Source of the DNA: a virus
Length of the DNA: 47,407 nt
Virus record (IMG/VR): IMGVR_UViG_3300042904_000114
Span: 1-47,407 of that record
Reading direction: 5' to 3' (one strand)
Part shown: in pieces, positions 13,241-47,407 of the stretch
Numbering within the stretch: position 1 is the first letter of the stretch
Layout: every line of letters begins with the position of its first letter
Position numbers and translations under genes: made by a program
Notes under the pieces: generated by a model
Told to the model about the DNA's origin: nothing
What the model saw: the letters and a program-made list of their open reading frames with translations, nothing else
Databases searched by the model: none

Positions 13241-13466
13241 CCGTCATTTTTTCCGTCAAATCCTTGGAGAAGCGCATGAATAAAGGGTCGGGGAGTCCTC
13301 TTCTGGGCACCACGGCACTATCTCTCAAACCCTTGTAATTCGCCGTTCTCCGCGTGTTTACTGGCTTTCAGCCAGTCCGTCAACGTCACTTCCATTCACT
13401 AAAATTACCCAAAATACCCTATATTTGCTACCCTATTCCGTCATTTTTCCGTCAAGGATTCCGTCA
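13241..13466 (+). promoter_or_regulatory. attP: attP region with repeated integrase or excisionase arm sites
   Basis: The gap between xis and int carries six copies of CCGTCA in one orientation, at 13241, 13253, 13377, 13438, 13449 and 13461, in close pairs with 11-12 bp spacing at each end, which suits arm-type protein binding sites. Between them are a tRNA-like segment (13294..13312) and a perfect 7-bp hairpin ACTGGCT-TTC-AGCCAGT (13360..13376). The last CCGTCA abuts the int start, so binding there could also repress int. Confidence 0.6.
13294..13312 (+). other. Candidate attP core resembling a tRNA 3' end
   Basis: AGTCCTCTTCTGGGCACCA reads like the 3' end of a tRNA gene: end of a T-loop, a 5-base T-stem strand (CCTCT), a 7-base acceptor strand (TCTGGGC), a discriminator A and CCA. 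Tyrosine integrases often use such tRNA ends as cores. It would predict insertion at a host tRNA with acceptor GCCCAGA. Identity of the tRNA is not certain. Confidence 0.5.
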
Positions 13467-14443
13467 TGGCGTACATCAGGAAGAGGGGCAAAGGGTACTA
13501 CGTCGAGATAAGAAAACTTGGCGTAGAAAAGAACGCCACGTTCGACAGTAAAACGGAAGCCGCGAAATGGGCAGCCGATACTGAAGCTTTAATTGTAGCA
13601 GGGAAGGCGAGCGGCATTCCAGATATTACGTTCGGGCAACTACTAAAGCGCTATTGCGACGAGGTAACGGTCAAGAAACGCGGGAAGAAATGGGAAGAGA
13701 CGCGCATTAAGCTTGTGCAGCGCGATGATTTGGCAAAGGTAAAACTGGCAATCCTCGACCAGCGTCACTTTGGAGAGTGGCGGGACAGGCGGCTTGAGTC
13801 GGTATCCGCGGCTAGTGTCAGGAGGGAATGGAACATACTCTCCGCAGCGTGCTCTACAGCGGTCAATGAGTGGAAGCTGATACCATCGCACCCGATGAAA
13901 GGAGTTAAGCGCCCAGAGGCTCCGCAGGCGCGAGACAGACGCATCAGCCAGAAAGAGATAGACGCGCTACTGTATGCGCTGGGCTATGACGGAAATACTC
14001 CGTCAACTATTACGGCACGAGTCGGGGCGGCTTTTCTCTTTGCGATTGAAACCGGGATGCGAGCGGGAGAGATTGCCGGTCTGAAGTGGGACAAGGTATT
14101 TCTTGAGAAGAGCTACCTGAAAACCTCTGGTAAGACGCGAGCAGCGTACCGAGACGTTCCGTTGTCTCCTGCGGCGATCAGAATCCTCAAGAGCCTGGAT
14201 GCGAGCGGAGAAACGGTATTCTGCCTCAACACCCAGCAGATCGACGCACTGTTCAGGAAGGCGAAGGCCAAAGCGCTAGTTGATGATCTGCATTTCCATG
14301 ATACCCGTCATGAAGCCATAACTAGGTTAGCAAGCAAGCTCCATATTCTGGAACTTGCCCGCGCGATAGGCCACAAGGATCTGCGGATGTTGCAGATTTA
14401 TTTTAATTCAACAGCAGAAGACGTCGCCAAGAAGTTGGACTAA
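13466..14443 (+). CDS. int: Tyrosine recombinase integrase
   Basis: 325 residues. An N-terminal arm-binding domain (MAYIRKRGKGYYVEIRKLGVEKNATF) precedes a core-binding SAM-like domain (about 54-150) and a catalytic domain with Arg199 (TGMRAGE), Lys223, His278-x-x-Arg281 (HDTRH), His303 (GHKD) and nucleophile Tyr312. All catalytic residues are present, so it should be active in site-specific integration and excision. It is preceded by attP and a probable excisionase. Its stop overlaps the stop of the convergent late operon, so the two transcripts run into each other. Confidence 0.96.
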   Translation: MAYIRKRGKGYYVEIRKLGVEKNATFDSKTEAAKWAADTEALIVAGKASGIPDITFGQLLKRYCDEVTVKKRGKKWEETRIKLVQRDDLAKVKLAILDQRHFGEWRDRRLESVSAASVRREWNILSAACSTAVNEWKLIPSHPMKGVKRPEAPQARDRRISQKEIDALLYALGYDGNTPSTITARVGAAFLFAIETGMRAGEIAGLKWDKVFLEKSYLKTSGKTRAAYRDVPLSPAAIRILKSLDASGETVFCLNTQQIDALFRKAKAKALVDDLHFHDTRHEAITRLASKLHILELARAIGHKDLRMLQIYFNSTAEDVAKKLD

Positions 14444-14751
14444 GAATTACATCCGCGCAGAGCCGCACGAAGTTTTATTTCACAACTCCACCTCTCCTCT
14501 ATTTCTGCCCTCAATGCCCTGTTGATTGTAACCGGACTATCACTCGGACTTACGCGATCCACAGCGTAACTATCCTTGCACTCATCGGGTAGCTTCACTT
14601 CGCACGGAACCGGTACGAGCTTTTCTATTACTTGCGTGCTTACTGTGGGTTTAGTGGCGCACCCCGCAATTAACAAGGCCGCGGCGCCCGCAGCAATCAA
14701 TTCCGCATACTTGTGCTGCCTTTTCTTTTCTTGTGTCGCTAAGCCGATCAT
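14440..14751 (-). CDS. Internal o-spanin (Rz1-like) lipoprotein reading frame
   Basis: 103 residues starting at the in-frame ATG at 14751, with AAAGGAG (14767..14761) nine bases before it. The product begins MIGLATQEKKRQHKYAELIAAGAAALLIAGC: basic region, hydrophobic core, lipobox with Cys as the acylated residue. The mature part (ATKPTVSTQVIEKLVPVPCEVKLPDEC...) contains extra Cys and Pro, as in many outer-membrane spanins. It would join the i-spanin encoded at 15733..16116 to fuse inner and outer membranes at lysis. Independent expression is predicted, not shown. Confidence 0.65.
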   Translation of the reverse strand: MIGLATQEKKRQHKYAELIAAGAAALLIAGCATKPTVSTQVIEKLVPVPCEVKLPDECKDSYAVDRVSPSDSPVTINRALRAEIEERWSCEIKLRAALRGCNS

Positions 14752-15363
14752 TCTCAGTTTCTCCTTTGTCTCGTCGGAGTGCTTATATCCCGCGTTCGAC
14801 GCCCTGGCTTTTTCAATGGCATCCGCAGAACGTTTCTTGCCTTTTCGCGCAGCGGCCATTTTTGCCCTTGTTTCGGCTGAGCAAACCTTTCCACGCTGAG
14901 CTGCCGCAATTTTCGCCTTCGTTTCTGGCGAACACCTAGCGCGTTCCATAGCCCTTGAGGCTATGGATATTTTTGCCCGCGTTTCTGCTGACTGCTTTGA
15001 TCCGCGTTTCGCGGCAGCTAATTTCTCAATCCATTCAACGGAACGCGGAGGACGCTGTATCCCGCGCAATCGATTCCCGACAGCCTCGCCAGCGAGTCTA
15101 CGAAGCCATCCGTAAGCTTTGTTGCCAGTGCATTGCCTGGCCATCCTGACTGCGGCAACCACAAGCCCCGGCACACCAGGATACATTTTCACTAGCAACT
15201 GATGAGCCACGTAATGCTCTTCGGCAGTTAACGACACGATATTCGTTTTTGCGTTATCCCCGCCCATACACTTCGGGATAACGTGATGCCGTTCTCGGTA
15301 TCCAGTAAGAACGCGGGAGCGCGCCCGCTCAACCAGCCTTATATAATGATTTTCGTAATTCAT
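14440..15363 (-). CDS. Homing endonuclease (HNH + NUMOD3) fused in frame to an o-spanin-like lipoprotein
   Basis: 307 residues. The first part is a mobile nuclease: RHHVIPKCMGG with NIVSLTAEEHYVAHQLLVKMY (HNH core, about 26-60), then several NUMOD3-type DNA-binding repeats (SAETRAKISIASRAM, SPETKAKIAAAQRGK, SAETRAKMAAARKGKKRS, SDETKEKLRMIG; about 118-208). The last third is unrelated: a hydrophobic signal ending in lipobox LIAGC followed by a short periplasmic tail, like the outer-membrane spanin Rz1. A good ribosome site inside the repeat region allows the lipoprotein to be made separately (14440..14751). The i-spanin is upstream. The fusion is plain in the sequence; the spanin role is inferred. 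Confidence 0.85.
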   Translation of the reverse strand: MNYENHYIRLVERARSRVLTGYRERHHVIPKCMGGDNAKTNIVSLTAEEHYVAHQLLVKMYPGVPGLVVAAVRMARQCTGNKAYGWLRRLAGEAVGNRLRGIQRPPRSVEWIEKLAAAKRGSKQSAETRAKISIASRAMERARCSPETKAKIAAAQRGKVCSAETRAKMAAARKGKKRSADAIEKARASNAGYKHSDETKEKLRMIGLATQEKKRQHKYAELIAAGAAALLIAGCATKPTVSTQVIEKLVPVPCEVKLPDECKDSYAVDRVSPSDSPVTINRALRAEIEERWSCEIKLRAALRGCNS

Positions 15364-15404
15364 TAGATAACAATCATCTCGTCGAGAATTAATCTAAATA
15401 GCAT
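15363..15404 (-). CDS. Possible 13-codon leader peptide before the endonuclease
   Basis: ATG at 15404 opens a 13-codon frame (MLFRLILDEMIVI) whose stop overlaps the endonuclease start (TAATG). A TATAAT (minus strand, 15414..15409) lies just upstream, so it could be the start of a short private transcript. Too short to be sure of. Confidence 0.3.
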   Translation of the reverse strand: MLFRLILDEMIVI

Positions 15405-15523
15405 CTCTATTATACTCCTATGGTATAATTACAACGAGCTTAGCTCATGAGGTCGTAGCAGTTTGCGGCCGCCCATCCCTGAACCAGAGCCGGTCAGCAG
15501 AGTCGGAGTTCTCGTAGGGATAG
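15405..15523. other. Non-coding structured gap in the lysis region
   Basis: No convincing gene. With the neighbouring bases it has many short hairpins: GAGC-TTA-GCTC (about 15434), CTG-A-ACC/GGT-CAG (about 15480-15498), CTCATTC/GGATGAG (about 15530-15551) and AAGGCGA/TCGCCTT with a GAAA loop (about 15558-15590). An extended -10 (TGGTATAAT, plus strand, 15421..15429) precedes them and a terminator follows at 15702, so a plus-strand RNA is possible. Confidence 0.35.
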
Positions 15524-15649
15524 TTACCCCCTCATTCGTTTCGATGGATGAGTGCAAGGCGATTTCCGAAAGGGAGTCGCCTTTGCTTTAGGCTTACTGG
15601 CACATCCGGCCAGAGCCAGACTAAGAATCAGCGCGATTGCTTTTTGCAT
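15524..15649 (-). CDS. Short lipoprotein (41 aa), perhaps a remnant o-spanin 5' end
   Basis: AGGAG precedes the ATG at 15649. MQKAIALILSLALAGCASKPKAK has a complete lipoprotein signal (lipobox LAGC), followed by only 26 mature residues, basic and Pro/Lys-rich. Its LAGCASKP resembles the IAGCATKP of the fused lipoprotein downstream. It may be a tiny outer-membrane spanin, or the truncated start of an o-spanin displaced when the endonuclease inserted. It follows the i-spanin and a hairpin. Confidence 0.6.
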   Translation of the reverse strand: MQKAIALILSLALAGCASKPKAKATPFRKSPCTHPSKRMRG

Positions 15650-15701
15650 ACTTGCTCCTGTGATATAATTCTCTTGTCTGCGAAAAGACAAGTTGTAGTT
15701 A

Positions 15702-15735
15702 AAAGCCCACTGTTATCAGCAGCGGGCTTTTTTTA
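15702..15735. terminator. Bidirectional intrinsic terminator
   Basis: AAAGCCC-A-CTG loop CAG-C-GGGCTTT hairpin with seven T on the plus-strand side and four on the minus-strand side. It is stronger in the plus direction, although no plus-strand gene precedes it. On the minus strand it separates the i-spanin from the short lipoprotein. Confidence 0.65.
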
Positions 15736-16116
15736 TTCAGCAATCCGCCGAGCAGTCACGTACTCAATCTGCTCCTTTACGATTGCTTCACATTGATTCG
15801 CAGCGGGAATGACCGGCGCGGCCTTGATGGTGACAGCCGTTTTGGAATGCTTCGCGGCTAACACCTCGGCCTGACTCATCGCGTTCCGTGCCGCCTCTTC
15901 GCGCTTACCCACGGCCTCAGTGATCTGCTTTATCCCGGTTCGCACCGATTCAATATCTGTCTCGCAGCGCTGATTCGCGGCAGACTTCACAGCGTTGTCA
16001 GACTGAAGCCGCGCTATCTCGGCTCCGTCCTTCCAGTCTTTGATAGACCAACCGCCAGCAAAGCCGGCAATGAATATGACTGCCGCGATTATTGCGGCAA
16101 CTGCTGGGCTGATCAT
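15733..16116 (-). CDS. Inner-membrane spanin (Rz-like)
   Basis: 127 residues: one N-terminal membrane segment (AVAAIIAAVIFIAGFAGGW), then a long helical, coiled-coil-like periplasmic part (WKDGAEIARLQSDNAVKSAANQRCETDIESVRTGIKQITEAV...), ending near IVKEQIEYVTARR. This is the architecture of Rz. It would work with the o-spanin to disrupt the outer membrane after the endolysin has cut the wall. Its ATG overlaps the stop of the protease gene (TAATG). Confidence 0.75.
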   Translation of the reverse strand: MISPAVAAIIAAVIFIAGFAGGWSIKDWKDGAEIARLQSDNAVKSAANQRCETDIESVRTGIKQITEAVGKREEAARNAMSQAEVLAAKHSKTAVTIKAAPVIPAANQCEAIVKEQIEYVTARRIAE

Positions 16117-17855
16117 TATTTCACCACCGTAACGTTAACTGTTGCCGTTGAGGAATTGCCGGCCGCGTCCTTCGCAATTACCTTTATCACGTGCCCGCCT
16201 GATACATTCTTAGGCTTGGTATTCCAACTCGCGCTGAGAGTCGTGCCGGTTCCGCTTGCCTTGGCTACGCCGTCAACATAGATCGTCTGCGTGATACCTG
16301 AAGCCGGACCGTTATCTGACGCGTTCGTCGTGATCGTGACGTTGCCCGACACATTACCTGCGATCGGATTAACAATTTTCACAACAGGCGGCGTCGTATC
16401 TTTGGCAATCTGAACCGTCCCGTTCGACACGGTAACCGCTACCGGTTCGGATGCGTCAACGTTGCCAGCAGCGTCGTAAGCGTAGGCAACGAGATTGGCT
16501 GTTCCATTTGGCGCGCCGGTTGAGTCCCACGTGAAAGCGAAAGGTGCCGCGTTGTCTATCGCAACCACTGTATTGTTTACCCACAACTCGACGCGGCTCA
16601 CACCGACGTTATCCGTTGCGGATACATTAACCGGGACCAGACCGGATACAGTGTCTCCAACATATGGAGATGTGATCGAGGCAACCGGAGATTGAATATC
16701 GAGCGTAGGCGTAGCAGAGATAACGGACTGAACCGCGGCAGCCGCATTGACCCTGCCCCATCCATAGTAAATATCTCGCCCCATATCGCCCAGATCAGTC
16801 GCGCTGGAGAATAGGCGCTTCTCTATGTCGGTATTTGGTAGGCCAGGGTTCGCCGCCATCATTAGCGCAATAACACCGGCTGTTACCGGACTGGCAAACG
16901 ATGTACCGGAAACTGATCCGTAACCCCCACCGACCGAAGTAGTCAGAATGCCCGCACCGGGAGCTGCCACTGAAACGAAACTTCCGTAGCTCGACCAGCT
17001 TGTTTTGAAGTCGTTGCCGTCTGTAGCAGATACCGCAATCAGGGTTGTGGTCGGCGTATAGCCCTGATCAATACCATTATTCCCCGCGGCAACAACCACC
17101 AGCCCGCCTTTGCTCTTCATATACTGCGATGCGTTCTGAATGCTTGCGCTTCCTGCTACGCTGTTGAAACTGACGTTCGCAACTCGAACACCGTGATCTG
17201 CTGCCCACGTGATAGCAGAGGCAATCGTCGAGATATTGGCTGAGCCACTGGTAGCAGACACACGCAACGGCATTATTCTCGACTGTCCCGCGACACCCGA
17301 TACACCGACTCCGTTATTCGTGATTGCTGAGGCCGTGCCAGCCACCTTCGTGCCATGACCGAATACGTCAGAGGTTATCGAGTTGTTGTCGTAGAAGTTC
17401 CAACCGGGAACCATGCGCGAGGCGAGATCTGGATGTGAGCCGTCAACGCCTGAGTCCAAAATAGCAACCGTTACCCCTGCGCCTAGCGAACTGTCCCACG
17501 CGGACGGTGCGCTGATTTTAGGAAGATGCCAGGCGCTGAGATAATTCGGATCGTTGGGCACAAACTCAGGTGAGACGAGATAATCCAGTTCAGCCGATTT
17601 GATGTGCGGATTATGTTCGAGTCGCGCAACGACGCCGCGCTCTGATCCGTGTGGAATGTCCACAATATACAGATCGCTTTGACCTATCTTTCGACCGTTG
17701 CCGCGATGGTCATTAAATATTTTCTTAAGGTCCGACTCAGGTAGTCCGGCACGTGGTAAAACGATGATCCGGCCCTCTGCGAACTGTTCCGGCTTGGCGT
17801 AGGCTGCGTCGGAAAGCAGGCATGCGCATACGAATGCTAAGAGCATTATTTTCAT
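16116..17855 (-). CDS. Secreted subtilisin-like serine protease (S8) with Ig-like C-terminal domains
   Basis: 579 residues. Signal peptide MKIMLLAFVCACLLSDAAYA (1-20); I9-type propeptide (about 28-95); S8 catalytic domain (about 105-380) with Asp134 (ILDSG), His167 (FGHGT), oxyanion Asn259 (AAGNN) and Ser319 (GTSFASP). Two bacterial Ig-like domains follow (about 390-477 and 490-577), each with a P-V-I-P/G-N-V-T pattern. The full triad predicts an active exported enzyme. It lies between the endolysin group and the i-spanin, so it may aid lysis or modify the envelope; being carried as lysogenic cargo is an alternative. Such a gene is unusual in a phage. Confidence 0.9.
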   Translation of the reverse strand: MKIMLLAFVCACLLSDAAYAKPEQFAEGRIIVLPRAGLPESDLKKIFNDHRGNGRKIGQSDLYIVDIPHGSERGVVARLEHNPHIKSAELDYLVSPEFVPNDPNYLSAWHLPKISAPSAWDSSLGAGVTVAILDSGVDGSHPDLASRMVPGWNFYDNNSITSDVFGHGTKVAGTASAITNNGVGVSGVAGQSRIMPLRVSATSGSANISTIASAITWAADHGVRVANVSFNSVAGSASIQNASQYMKSKGGLVVVAAGNNGIDQGYTPTTTLIAVSATDGNDFKTSWSSYGSFVSVAAPGAGILTTSVGGGYGSVSGTSFASPVTAGVIALMMAANPGLPNTDIEKRLFSSATDLGDMGRDIYYGWGRVNAAAAVQSVISATPTLDIQSPVASITSPYVGDTVSGLVPVNVSATDNVGVSRVELWVNNTVVAIDNAAPFAFTWDSTGAPNGTANLVAYAYDAAGNVDASEPVAVTVSNGTVQIAKDTTPPVVKIVNPIAGNVSGNVTITTNASDNGPASGITQTIYVDGVAKASGTGTTLSASWNTKPKNVSGGHVIKVIAKDAAGNSSTATVNVTVVK

Positions 17856-17941: not shown

Positions 17942-18223
17942 TTACTTTGTGATCCACACTTTGTAAGGCGCCCTGCCGGGCTTATAGCGCCAGTAAAATA
18001 CCGCTTTAGCACCGGCCGCCACCATTTGCTGATGCAGAGAGCGACGTTGCGGGATGGTTAGCGTCAGCCCGTGTGCAATCTTCGCCTCGAAGATTCCTGG
18101 CTCGACTTGCACCACCGCGAACGCGTCTTTGAATGGCGCGTACTCACCGAACACAGCCGGCTCGTCGTGAGCACGAACGAAGCCAACAGACCATTCGATA
18201 GTGACGCAGCCAGAATCACTCAT
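17942..18223 (-). CDS. Small conserved phage protein after the endolysin (93 aa)
   Basis: ATG at 18223 overlaps the endolysin stop (ATGA), preferred over a start 15 bases upstream. MSDSGCVTIEWSVGFVRAHDEPAVFGEYAPFKDAFAVVQVEPGIFEAKIAHG... is beta-rich with a helix (QRRSLHQQMVAAGAKAVFYWRYKPGR). It is probably a small cytoplasmic phage protein; function unknown. A 7-bp perfect hairpin (TTGCCTA/TAGGCAA) lies downstream at 17918..17936 in front of the protease gene. Confidence 0.7.
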   Translation of the reverse strand: MSDSGCVTIEWSVGFVRAHDEPAVFGEYAPFKDAFAVVQVEPGIFEAKIAHGLTLTIPQRRSLHQQMVAAGAKAVFYWRYKPGRAPYKVWITK

Positions 18224-18675
18224 GCCGCTACCTTGCATTCAGTAAGGTACAGTTCGGCTTCCGCTGCTCTGCGACGAATCAGCCCATTCACTACCTTGCC
18301 GCCTGACCTTCGCCAATTAGCAAACGCTGCAGCTGCTTTCTTAAAGTCGCGCTGGTTGTGATACTTCAGGACTTCGCTTTTCTGGAATGCCCCGCGTCCA
18401 ATGTTCCATGACAGACAGACCATTGCGGCAAATTGGTTTTCGTTCGGCGTGACAGAACAAGCCGATTCCACCGTGCGCTCATAGTCCCGGATCTCTTCGG
18501 CTAGGCGAGCGTTACCCTCTTGCTCGGTCATACGGTCGCCTTCCTTCACGCCTTTGGTAAAGCCCCAGCCGATAGTCCAGACCTTACCCATGCCATCCCA
18601 ATAGGCCTTTTCCTCGAATCCCTTGCCCGCCTCGAAATGCTTGAGCAGGGCTATCCCCGCTTGGTTTGTAAACAT
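18220..18675 (-). CDS. Endolysin, T4-type lysozyme (GH24)
   Basis: 151 residues. The catalytic region LLKHFEAGKGFEEKAYWDGMGKVWTIGWG carries the Glu15, Asp27 and Thr34 set of GH24 lysozymes, with a three-residue insertion between Glu and Asp. Later NQFAAMVCLSWNIGRGAF and GLIRRRAAEAELY are also typical. No signal or SAR segment is present, so it needs a holin to reach the peptidoglycan it cleaves. It lies downstream of several small membrane-protein genes that are holin candidates. Confidence 0.9.
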   Translation of the reverse strand: MFTNQAGIALLKHFEAGKGFEEKAYWDGMGKVWTIGWGFTKGVKEGDRMTEQEGNARLAEEIRDYERTVESACSVTPNENQFAAMVCLSWNIGRGAFQKSEVLKYHNQRDFKKAAAAFANWRRSGGKVVNGLIRRRAAEAELYLTECKVAA

Positions 18676-47138: not shown

Positions 47139-47407
47139 CCGAACACCTCGTAACCCCAGCCGCCGCCGTCTTTCTTTGCCTTGGCTTTCACTGCGATAAA
47201 TTTGAACGGGTACATTTCGGACGCCACTTTGATCTTTACGCGCGCGTCGTCTTGCCAGAATCCCTTTACTTCGTGGATCTCTATCTGGCCATCGAGACGC
47301 ATTAAGGCAAAGTCTGGAGTGTAGAAAGTGTTATCGGCGAGTCGGAATTTCATGCCCTCGAATCTGTACCAGAGAAGTTCTCCAGCCATCAGCAAGGTTT
47401 TCAGATA
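47135..47407 (-). CDS. DUF1064-like nuclease-fold protein, 3' part (continues at coordinate 127 upwards)
   Basis: Carboxy-terminal part of the 115-residue protein whose start is at 202 across the circular join. It contains TPDFALMRLDGQIEIHEVKGFW, the Asp and Glu-x-Lys positions expected in this nuclease-like fold. The stop at 47135 overlaps the next gene start (GTGA). Confidence 0.8.
   Translation of the reverse strand, partial: YLKTLLMAGELLWYRFEGMKFRLADNTFYTPDFALMRLDGQIEIHEVKGFWQDDARVKIKVASEMYPFKFIAVKAKAKKDGGGWGYEVFG
47281..47407. repeat. Terminal overlap, right copy (identical to 1..127)
   Basis: Exact repeat of the first 127 bases, marking circular closure of the assembly. See the entry at the left end. 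Confidence 0.95.

Follow-up and report, generated by a model that had tools for sequence, protein, structure and literature searches.

The window, that is, the whole stretch of DNA analyzed here, is a 47,407-base virus contig from IMG/VR. It begins and ends with the same 128 bases (direct terminal repeat of 128 bp, positions 1-128 and 47280-47407). Thus, the contig represents a complete, circularly closing phage genome. The phage encodes an integrase. Among named genomes, the o-spanins nearest to that of the window belong to Nitrosovibrio and Nitrosospira prophages, which makes an ammonia-oxidising member of the Nitrosomonadaceae the probable host.

On the minus strand, the lysis region contains, in this order, an endolysin gene (18675..18220), a 98-aa ORF, a subtilase gene (17855..16116), an i-spanin gene (15733..16116), a hairpin (15701..15731), a 41-aa lipoprotein ORF (15524..15649), 160 non-coding bases (15364..15523) and a long frame (14440..15363). 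The long frame starts with an ATG at 15363, ends with a stop at 14440 and encodes 307 aa with no internal stop codon. A tyrosine integrase gene on the plus strand (13466..14443) converges on this frame, and the two ends overlap by 4 bp. The preliminary description had claimed that HNH and NUMOD3 sequences run into a lipoprotein without a stop, and the open frame bears this out. In profile searches, residues 1-210 matched the phrog_655 homing endonuclease (E 1.5e-51) and residues 229-306 matched phrog_3580. A homing endonuclease and an o-spanin lipoprotein really share one frame. The fusion is known from one phage only.

The subtilase is a secreted-type S8 protein of 579 aa that contains bacterial Ig-like domains and whose N-terminus is signal-like. 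Its gene is placed within the lysis cassette, with the endolysin on one side and the spanins on the other. A subtilase (63-70% identical) also precedes the spanins in three other loci, L099-L101. The position of the gene suggests an accessory role in lysis or at the envelope. The i-spanin (127 aa) is homologous to the i-spanins encoded upstream of the related o-spanins (35-52% identity), and no embedded o-spanin was found in its gene in any frame. Near position 15764, the i-spanin gene has GAGTACG where the relatives with overlapped genes have GARTATG, which contains the o-spanin ATG inside the i-spanin gene; a AAAGGAGCAG site is still present upstream of GAGTACG. The hairpin directly behind the i-spanin gene is terminator-like. 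Its T-run is better on the plus strand, and it is possibly bidirectional. A second HNH endonuclease gene is present elsewhere in the phage (10666-11349; phrog_1891, HNH_3). The window was also searched for a tRNA or a tRNA-end att site, and none was found. In locus L115, a tRNA 3'-end-like sequence (1140-1195) lies between the o-spanin gene and the convergent integrase gene and is a likely attachment site.

The endonuclease-derived part of the fusion comprises residues 1 to about 216 (14716..15363, minus strand). This assignment is based on alignment with relatives and on the profile matches, which reach residues 210 (phrog_655), 213 (phrog_314) and 215 (TIGR01453). In the Pfam search of the fusion frame, only NUMOD3 was detected (PF07460, three stretches in the endonuclease half, E 2.1e-10), and the HNH model gave no match. 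In the alignment, H26/H27, N41 and H50 correspond to the HNH residues and are conserved with the phage relatives. No match to the endonuclease part was obtained among solved structures. We infer that nuclease function is retained in the fused endonuclease.

In most full-length relatives of the endonuclease, the NUMOD3 repeats are followed by a C-terminal CxxC...HxxxC zinc finger, as in the enzymes of Klebsiella phage R3_1, Providencia phage PSTRCR_121 and Aeromonas phage Aes012. The endonuclease of the window has no zinc finger, and the o-spanin stands in its place in the alignment. The relative in JSE also ends differently, and the zinc finger is not strictly defining. A frameshift or indel artefact was considered for this region and rejected, because the missing zinc finger is coded in neither of the other frames. 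The last NUMOD3 repeat gives way to HKYAELIAAGAAALLIAGC at the position that corresponds to the initiator Met of L001 and other free o-spanins. The native start of the o-spanin thus appears to have been lost.

The o-spanin is needed for disruption of the outer membrane at lysis. In the fusion, the o-spanin homology (14440..14715, minus strand, beginning with HKYAELIAAGAAALLIAGC) consists of a signal sequence, the lipobox Cys235 (codon 14661-14659) and a mature domain. The members of phrog_3580 include a protein of Klebsiella phage Soft annotated as outer membrane spanin component. The lipobox is LIAGC, and the sequence AALLIAGC fits the consensus [LVI][ASTVI][GAS]C cited in PMC6139136. The mature domain keeps all 26 of the 26 positions that are invariant among the relatives, the conserved Cys included, and the mean identity of the fused o-spanin to the family is mid-range, not that of an outlier. 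Between the fused o-spanin and its relatives, synonymous sites are saturated and pN is about 0.2. The fused o-spanin shows no sign of decay; a very recent fusion would look alike. The cognate i-spanin is present, about 1 kb away. The fused o-spanin presumably retains its lysis function.

The first o-spanin scans gave few relatives and none in genome contigs; an alignment-based scan then gave 75 loci (the wider set). When the spanin pairs of the window and of L115 were used for another scan, 31 loci were obtained (the close set), some of which are one prophage present in two collections. The close set includes the Nitrosovibrio and Nitrosospira prophages, and its o-spanins are 48-77% identical to that of the window. 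The preliminary description had called for a search of related phages for the same o-spanin without the nuclease and had named a full-length fusion shared by all of them as its refutation. The o-spanin is free in the 31 close loci and in all 75 loci of the wider set, and the endonuclease was found in 0/31 and 0/75, so that the relatives do not share the full-length fusion. The same i-spanin is encoded upstream in each of the 31 close loci. The i-spanin and o-spanin genes overlap by 1-29 nt in most of these and are separated by 23-525 nt in some. In L115, one of the 75 wider loci, the i-spanin, o-spanin and convergent integrase genes are ordered as in the window with no insert; the two spanin genes overlap by 1 nt, and their products are 38% and 50% identical, respectively, to those of the window. 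An uninvaded o-spanin is the rule among the relatives. The endonuclease was not found elsewhere in 27 whole records of the relatives, in a search run without a positive control. No matches were obtained when phages were searched by megablast with the structural region or by tblastn with the i-spanin, and a scan of viral contigs also gave none.

Two further arrangements were observed at this position. In the related phage L209, about 525 bp of other sequence (242-768), without similarity to the endonuclease, lie between the i-spanin and o-spanin genes. The gap between the two genes may be an insertion hotspot. In L099 (6735-7217), L100 (6726-7208) and L101 (6790-7290), unrelated spanin pairs of the embedded type are found at the position of the spanin/endonuclease module of the window. 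Whole spanin modules are swapped beside the integrase, since L099-L101 share the subtilase but not the spanins.

The small lipoprotein ORF behind the i-spanin gene (41 aa, MQKAIALILSLALAGCASKP..., 15649..15524) was considered as an independent o-spanin. This was set aside, as the DNA match to the 5' ends of the related o-spanin genes favored a gene stub. Positions 15591-15627 are identical at 33 of 37 bases to the 5' end of the L190 o-spanin gene. Among 2000 recodings with the same amino acids and the codon usage of the phage, none reached 33 matches (maximum 32, mean 26). Thus, the DNA match is not due to shared amino acids. The bases before the start of the stub somewhat resemble those of the relatives of the overlapped type (p about 0.02, 3 of 14 compared), and the similarity of the stub to the related o-spanins ends after Lys-Pro. 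On the simplest reading, the ORF would be the severed 5' end of the resident o-spanin gene. The signal sequence of the fused copy is different and has diverged from that of the stub. Therefore, the fused copy is probably no recent tandem duplicate, and it is possible that a donor o-spanin copy arrived with the endonuclease. The non-coding stretch between the stub and the endonuclease (15364..15523, minus strand) is presumed to be part of the insertion and gave no Rfam intron match. For the plus strand of 15364-15580, the predicted fold is better than those of most shuffled sequences (z -2.4), also with no Rfam match.

The fusion frame contains an internal ATG at codon 205 (14751-14749), preceded by an AAAGGAG ribosome-binding site (14761..14767, minus strand). 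Since the endonuclease profiles still match beyond M205, up to residues 210-215, both the ATG and the ribosome site are derived from the endonuclease, and their location within the endonuclease part is as the preliminary description had it. The site falls on Lys-Glu-Lys codons in the final NUMOD3 repeat; its AAGGAG ends 9 nt before the ATG. The predicted anti-SD pairing of ATG205 is -8.7 kcal/mol, the strongest among 19 in-frame ATG/GTG/TTG codons, while that of the endonuclease's own ATG is only -3.5 kcal/mol. AAGGAG corresponds to Lys-Glu codons of the repeat, and an equally good site occurs in 15% of the synonymous recodings. Therefore, its presence is not strong evidence of selection, and the site may be an incidental by-product. 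Since the native start is lost and ATG205 is the sole suitably positioned start after it that has a strong ribosome site, initiation at 14751 is favored. In the best reading of the sequence, which rests on the anti-SD energies, a separate o-spanin of 103 aa (14440..14751, minus strand) would be initiated there. Its signal peptide had been described as of normal length; the signal sequence is complete, but its 30 residues before the Cys make it slightly longer than those of the close relatives (12-27).

We conclude with high confidence that the endonuclease has invaded the spanin cassette. The proposal that a mobile element invaded the o-spanin gene itself agrees with the free o-spanins of all relatives. 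However, the geometry is different: the endonuclease lies between the i-spanin and o-spanin genes, a stub has been left, and the zinc finger is missing. We propose the following mechanism. Break and repair during homing would have placed the endonuclease between the i-spanin gene and the o-spanin 5' end, leaving the severed 5' stub of the resident o-spanin gene upstream. The insertion would also have cost the endonuclease its zinc finger, and its final NUMOD3 repeat would have become continuous, in frame, with a second copy of the o-spanin at the site of the start codon in the related genes. Production of the o-spanin would then occur mainly as the separate 103-aa lipoprotein from the ATG at 14751, using the AAAGGAG that the NUMOD3 repeat happens to encode, and the weakly initiated 307-aa frame would supply little endonuclease. 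A low yield of endonuclease would agree with the translational limitation discussed for T4 endonucleases (PMC2988022). The whole mechanism, internal initiation at 14751 included, is in our judgment probable. The occurrence in a single phage, the possibly incidental ribosome site and the slightly long signal sequence count against it, and so does the hairpin behind the i-spanin gene, because it bears on the transcription of the fused o-spanin. Removal of the element might put lysis at risk, as the preliminary description suggested. More tentatively, the element might carry, in frame behind the endonuclease, a replacement 5' end (ribosome site, start and signal sequence) for the gene that is broken by homing. 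Homing into an o-spanin gene would then cut off the old 5' end yet at once restore a working, internally initiated lysis protein; we regard this extension as possible but doubtful. A homing element could in this way reside inside an important gene with no need for splicing.

Four other explanations were weighed against this mechanism. Illegitimate recombination at a mosaic boundary may have carried the endonuclease to this place, with no homing into the spanin gene. The exchange of spanin modules at this position, seen in the unrelated embedded spanins of L099-L101, is consistent with such an event, and according to the available part of PMC10448857, nuclease genes are often located at exchange boundaries. 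However, the stub, the endonuclease and the second o-spanin are ordered as break repair within the o-spanin gene predicts, and we consider this explanation unlikely.

The fused o-spanin could instead be a dying copy whose expression was destroyed by the insertion, so that lysis would proceed either in its absence or by means of the small lipoprotein of 15649..15524. The latter sits after the i-spanin gene and possesses both a lipobox and an AGGAG site, its signal part has weak PHROG spanin matches, and the fusion occurs in a single genome. In contrast, the fused copy keeps every residue invariant among the relatives and has neither a stop nor a frameshift, whereas the approximately 25 mature residues of the small lipoprotein are unlike the mature domain of the family and its signal part is stub-like. 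Thus, a dying copy is decidedly unlikely.

It is also conceivable that only the 307-aa protein is made, with the endonuclease as a giant cytoplasmic n-region and the o-spanin being freed by signal peptidase II. The frame is open throughout, as this requires. However, the ribosome site of the first ATG is weak (-3.5) and the strong one is at 14751; moreover, 234 residues would precede the lipobox Cys, far beyond the range of the relatives. Sec export of the 307-aa product via an internal signal is the less likely route, and we regard this explanation as very improbable. A self-splicing intron joining the stub (...CASKP) to ...TVSTQVIEK... and restoring one o-spanin is scarcely credible: such a joint would yield a normal o-spanin at the protein level and there is a weak match to TIGR01453 (group I intron endonuclease) that stays under its cut-off, but no group I or II match was found in Rfam even with permissive thresholds, the fold of the minus-strand RNA in the non-coding part is no better than those of shuffled sequences, and the 3' part owns a complete signal sequence, which would be pointless if spliced.

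Homing endonucleases usually avoid harm by residing in introns, inteins or intergenic sites. In the window, the endonuclease appears instead to be fused in frame to a gene of the lysis cassette, and an internal start would rescue the lysis protein. The invaded cassette is a testable example of a selfish gene becoming tied to an important function, and of an overlapped spanin pair becoming a separated one. In the open-licence literature, no in-frame endonuclease/o-spanin fusion was reported, and an endonuclease with an "internal ribosome binding site" was not found.

Several known systems share parts of this arrangement. In the ShiLan-type insertions in phage methylase genes, an HNH element also resides in a gene with neither intron nor intein (PMC11855218). 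Unlike in the window, the HNH protein is encoded in a different frame from the host gene, and translation of the host protein continues across the insert (PMC11855218). The free-standing mob/seg endonucleases of T4-like phages are mobile HNH or GIY-YIG genes, as in the window, and promoters of downstream genes can lie inside the endonuclease gene (PMC2988022, available part). The same part of this source lists nrdA (Aeh1) and gene 60 (T4) as genes split by insertions, and it describes no in-frame downstream fusion with an internal start. In the mobile ORFs of fungal mitochondria (Allomyces atp6; Glomus atp6, atp9, cox2 and nad3), an endonuclease inserted in a gene is accompanied by a second copy of a gene end, which takes over from the displaced native end and is partly in phase (PMC3630166). 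The duplicated part is the C-terminus in the fungal ORFs, whereas it is the 5' end with the signal sequence in the window. The two would thus be mirror images, with unrelated endonuclease families and genomes. Compared with the fungal kind, a stub seen at the DNA level and a divergent second copy flank the endonuclease in the window.

The closest parallel concerns the spanin genes themselves. In the T5-like phages Shivani and phiR201, a GIY-YIG endonuclease is inserted between the i-spanin and o-spanin genes, and the lipoprotein signal has to remain functional after an insertion of this kind (Kongari et al. 2018, PMC6139136). As in the window, the endonuclease lies between the spanin genes and the overlapped architecture has become a separated one. 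In Shivani, the annotated ribosome site of the o-spanin is also inside the endonuclease gene, and the signal sequence of the o-spanin is changed. In contrast to the HNH/NUMOD3 fusion of the window, the GIY-YIG endonuclease and o-spanin genes of Shivani are unfused and overlap by 13 nt in different frames, and no o-spanin stub was reported for Shivani or phiR201. The window thus adds another, independent example of an endonuclease in the spanin gap, the second after the T5-like phages, and it differs from the first by the endonuclease family, the in-frame fusion and the gene stub.
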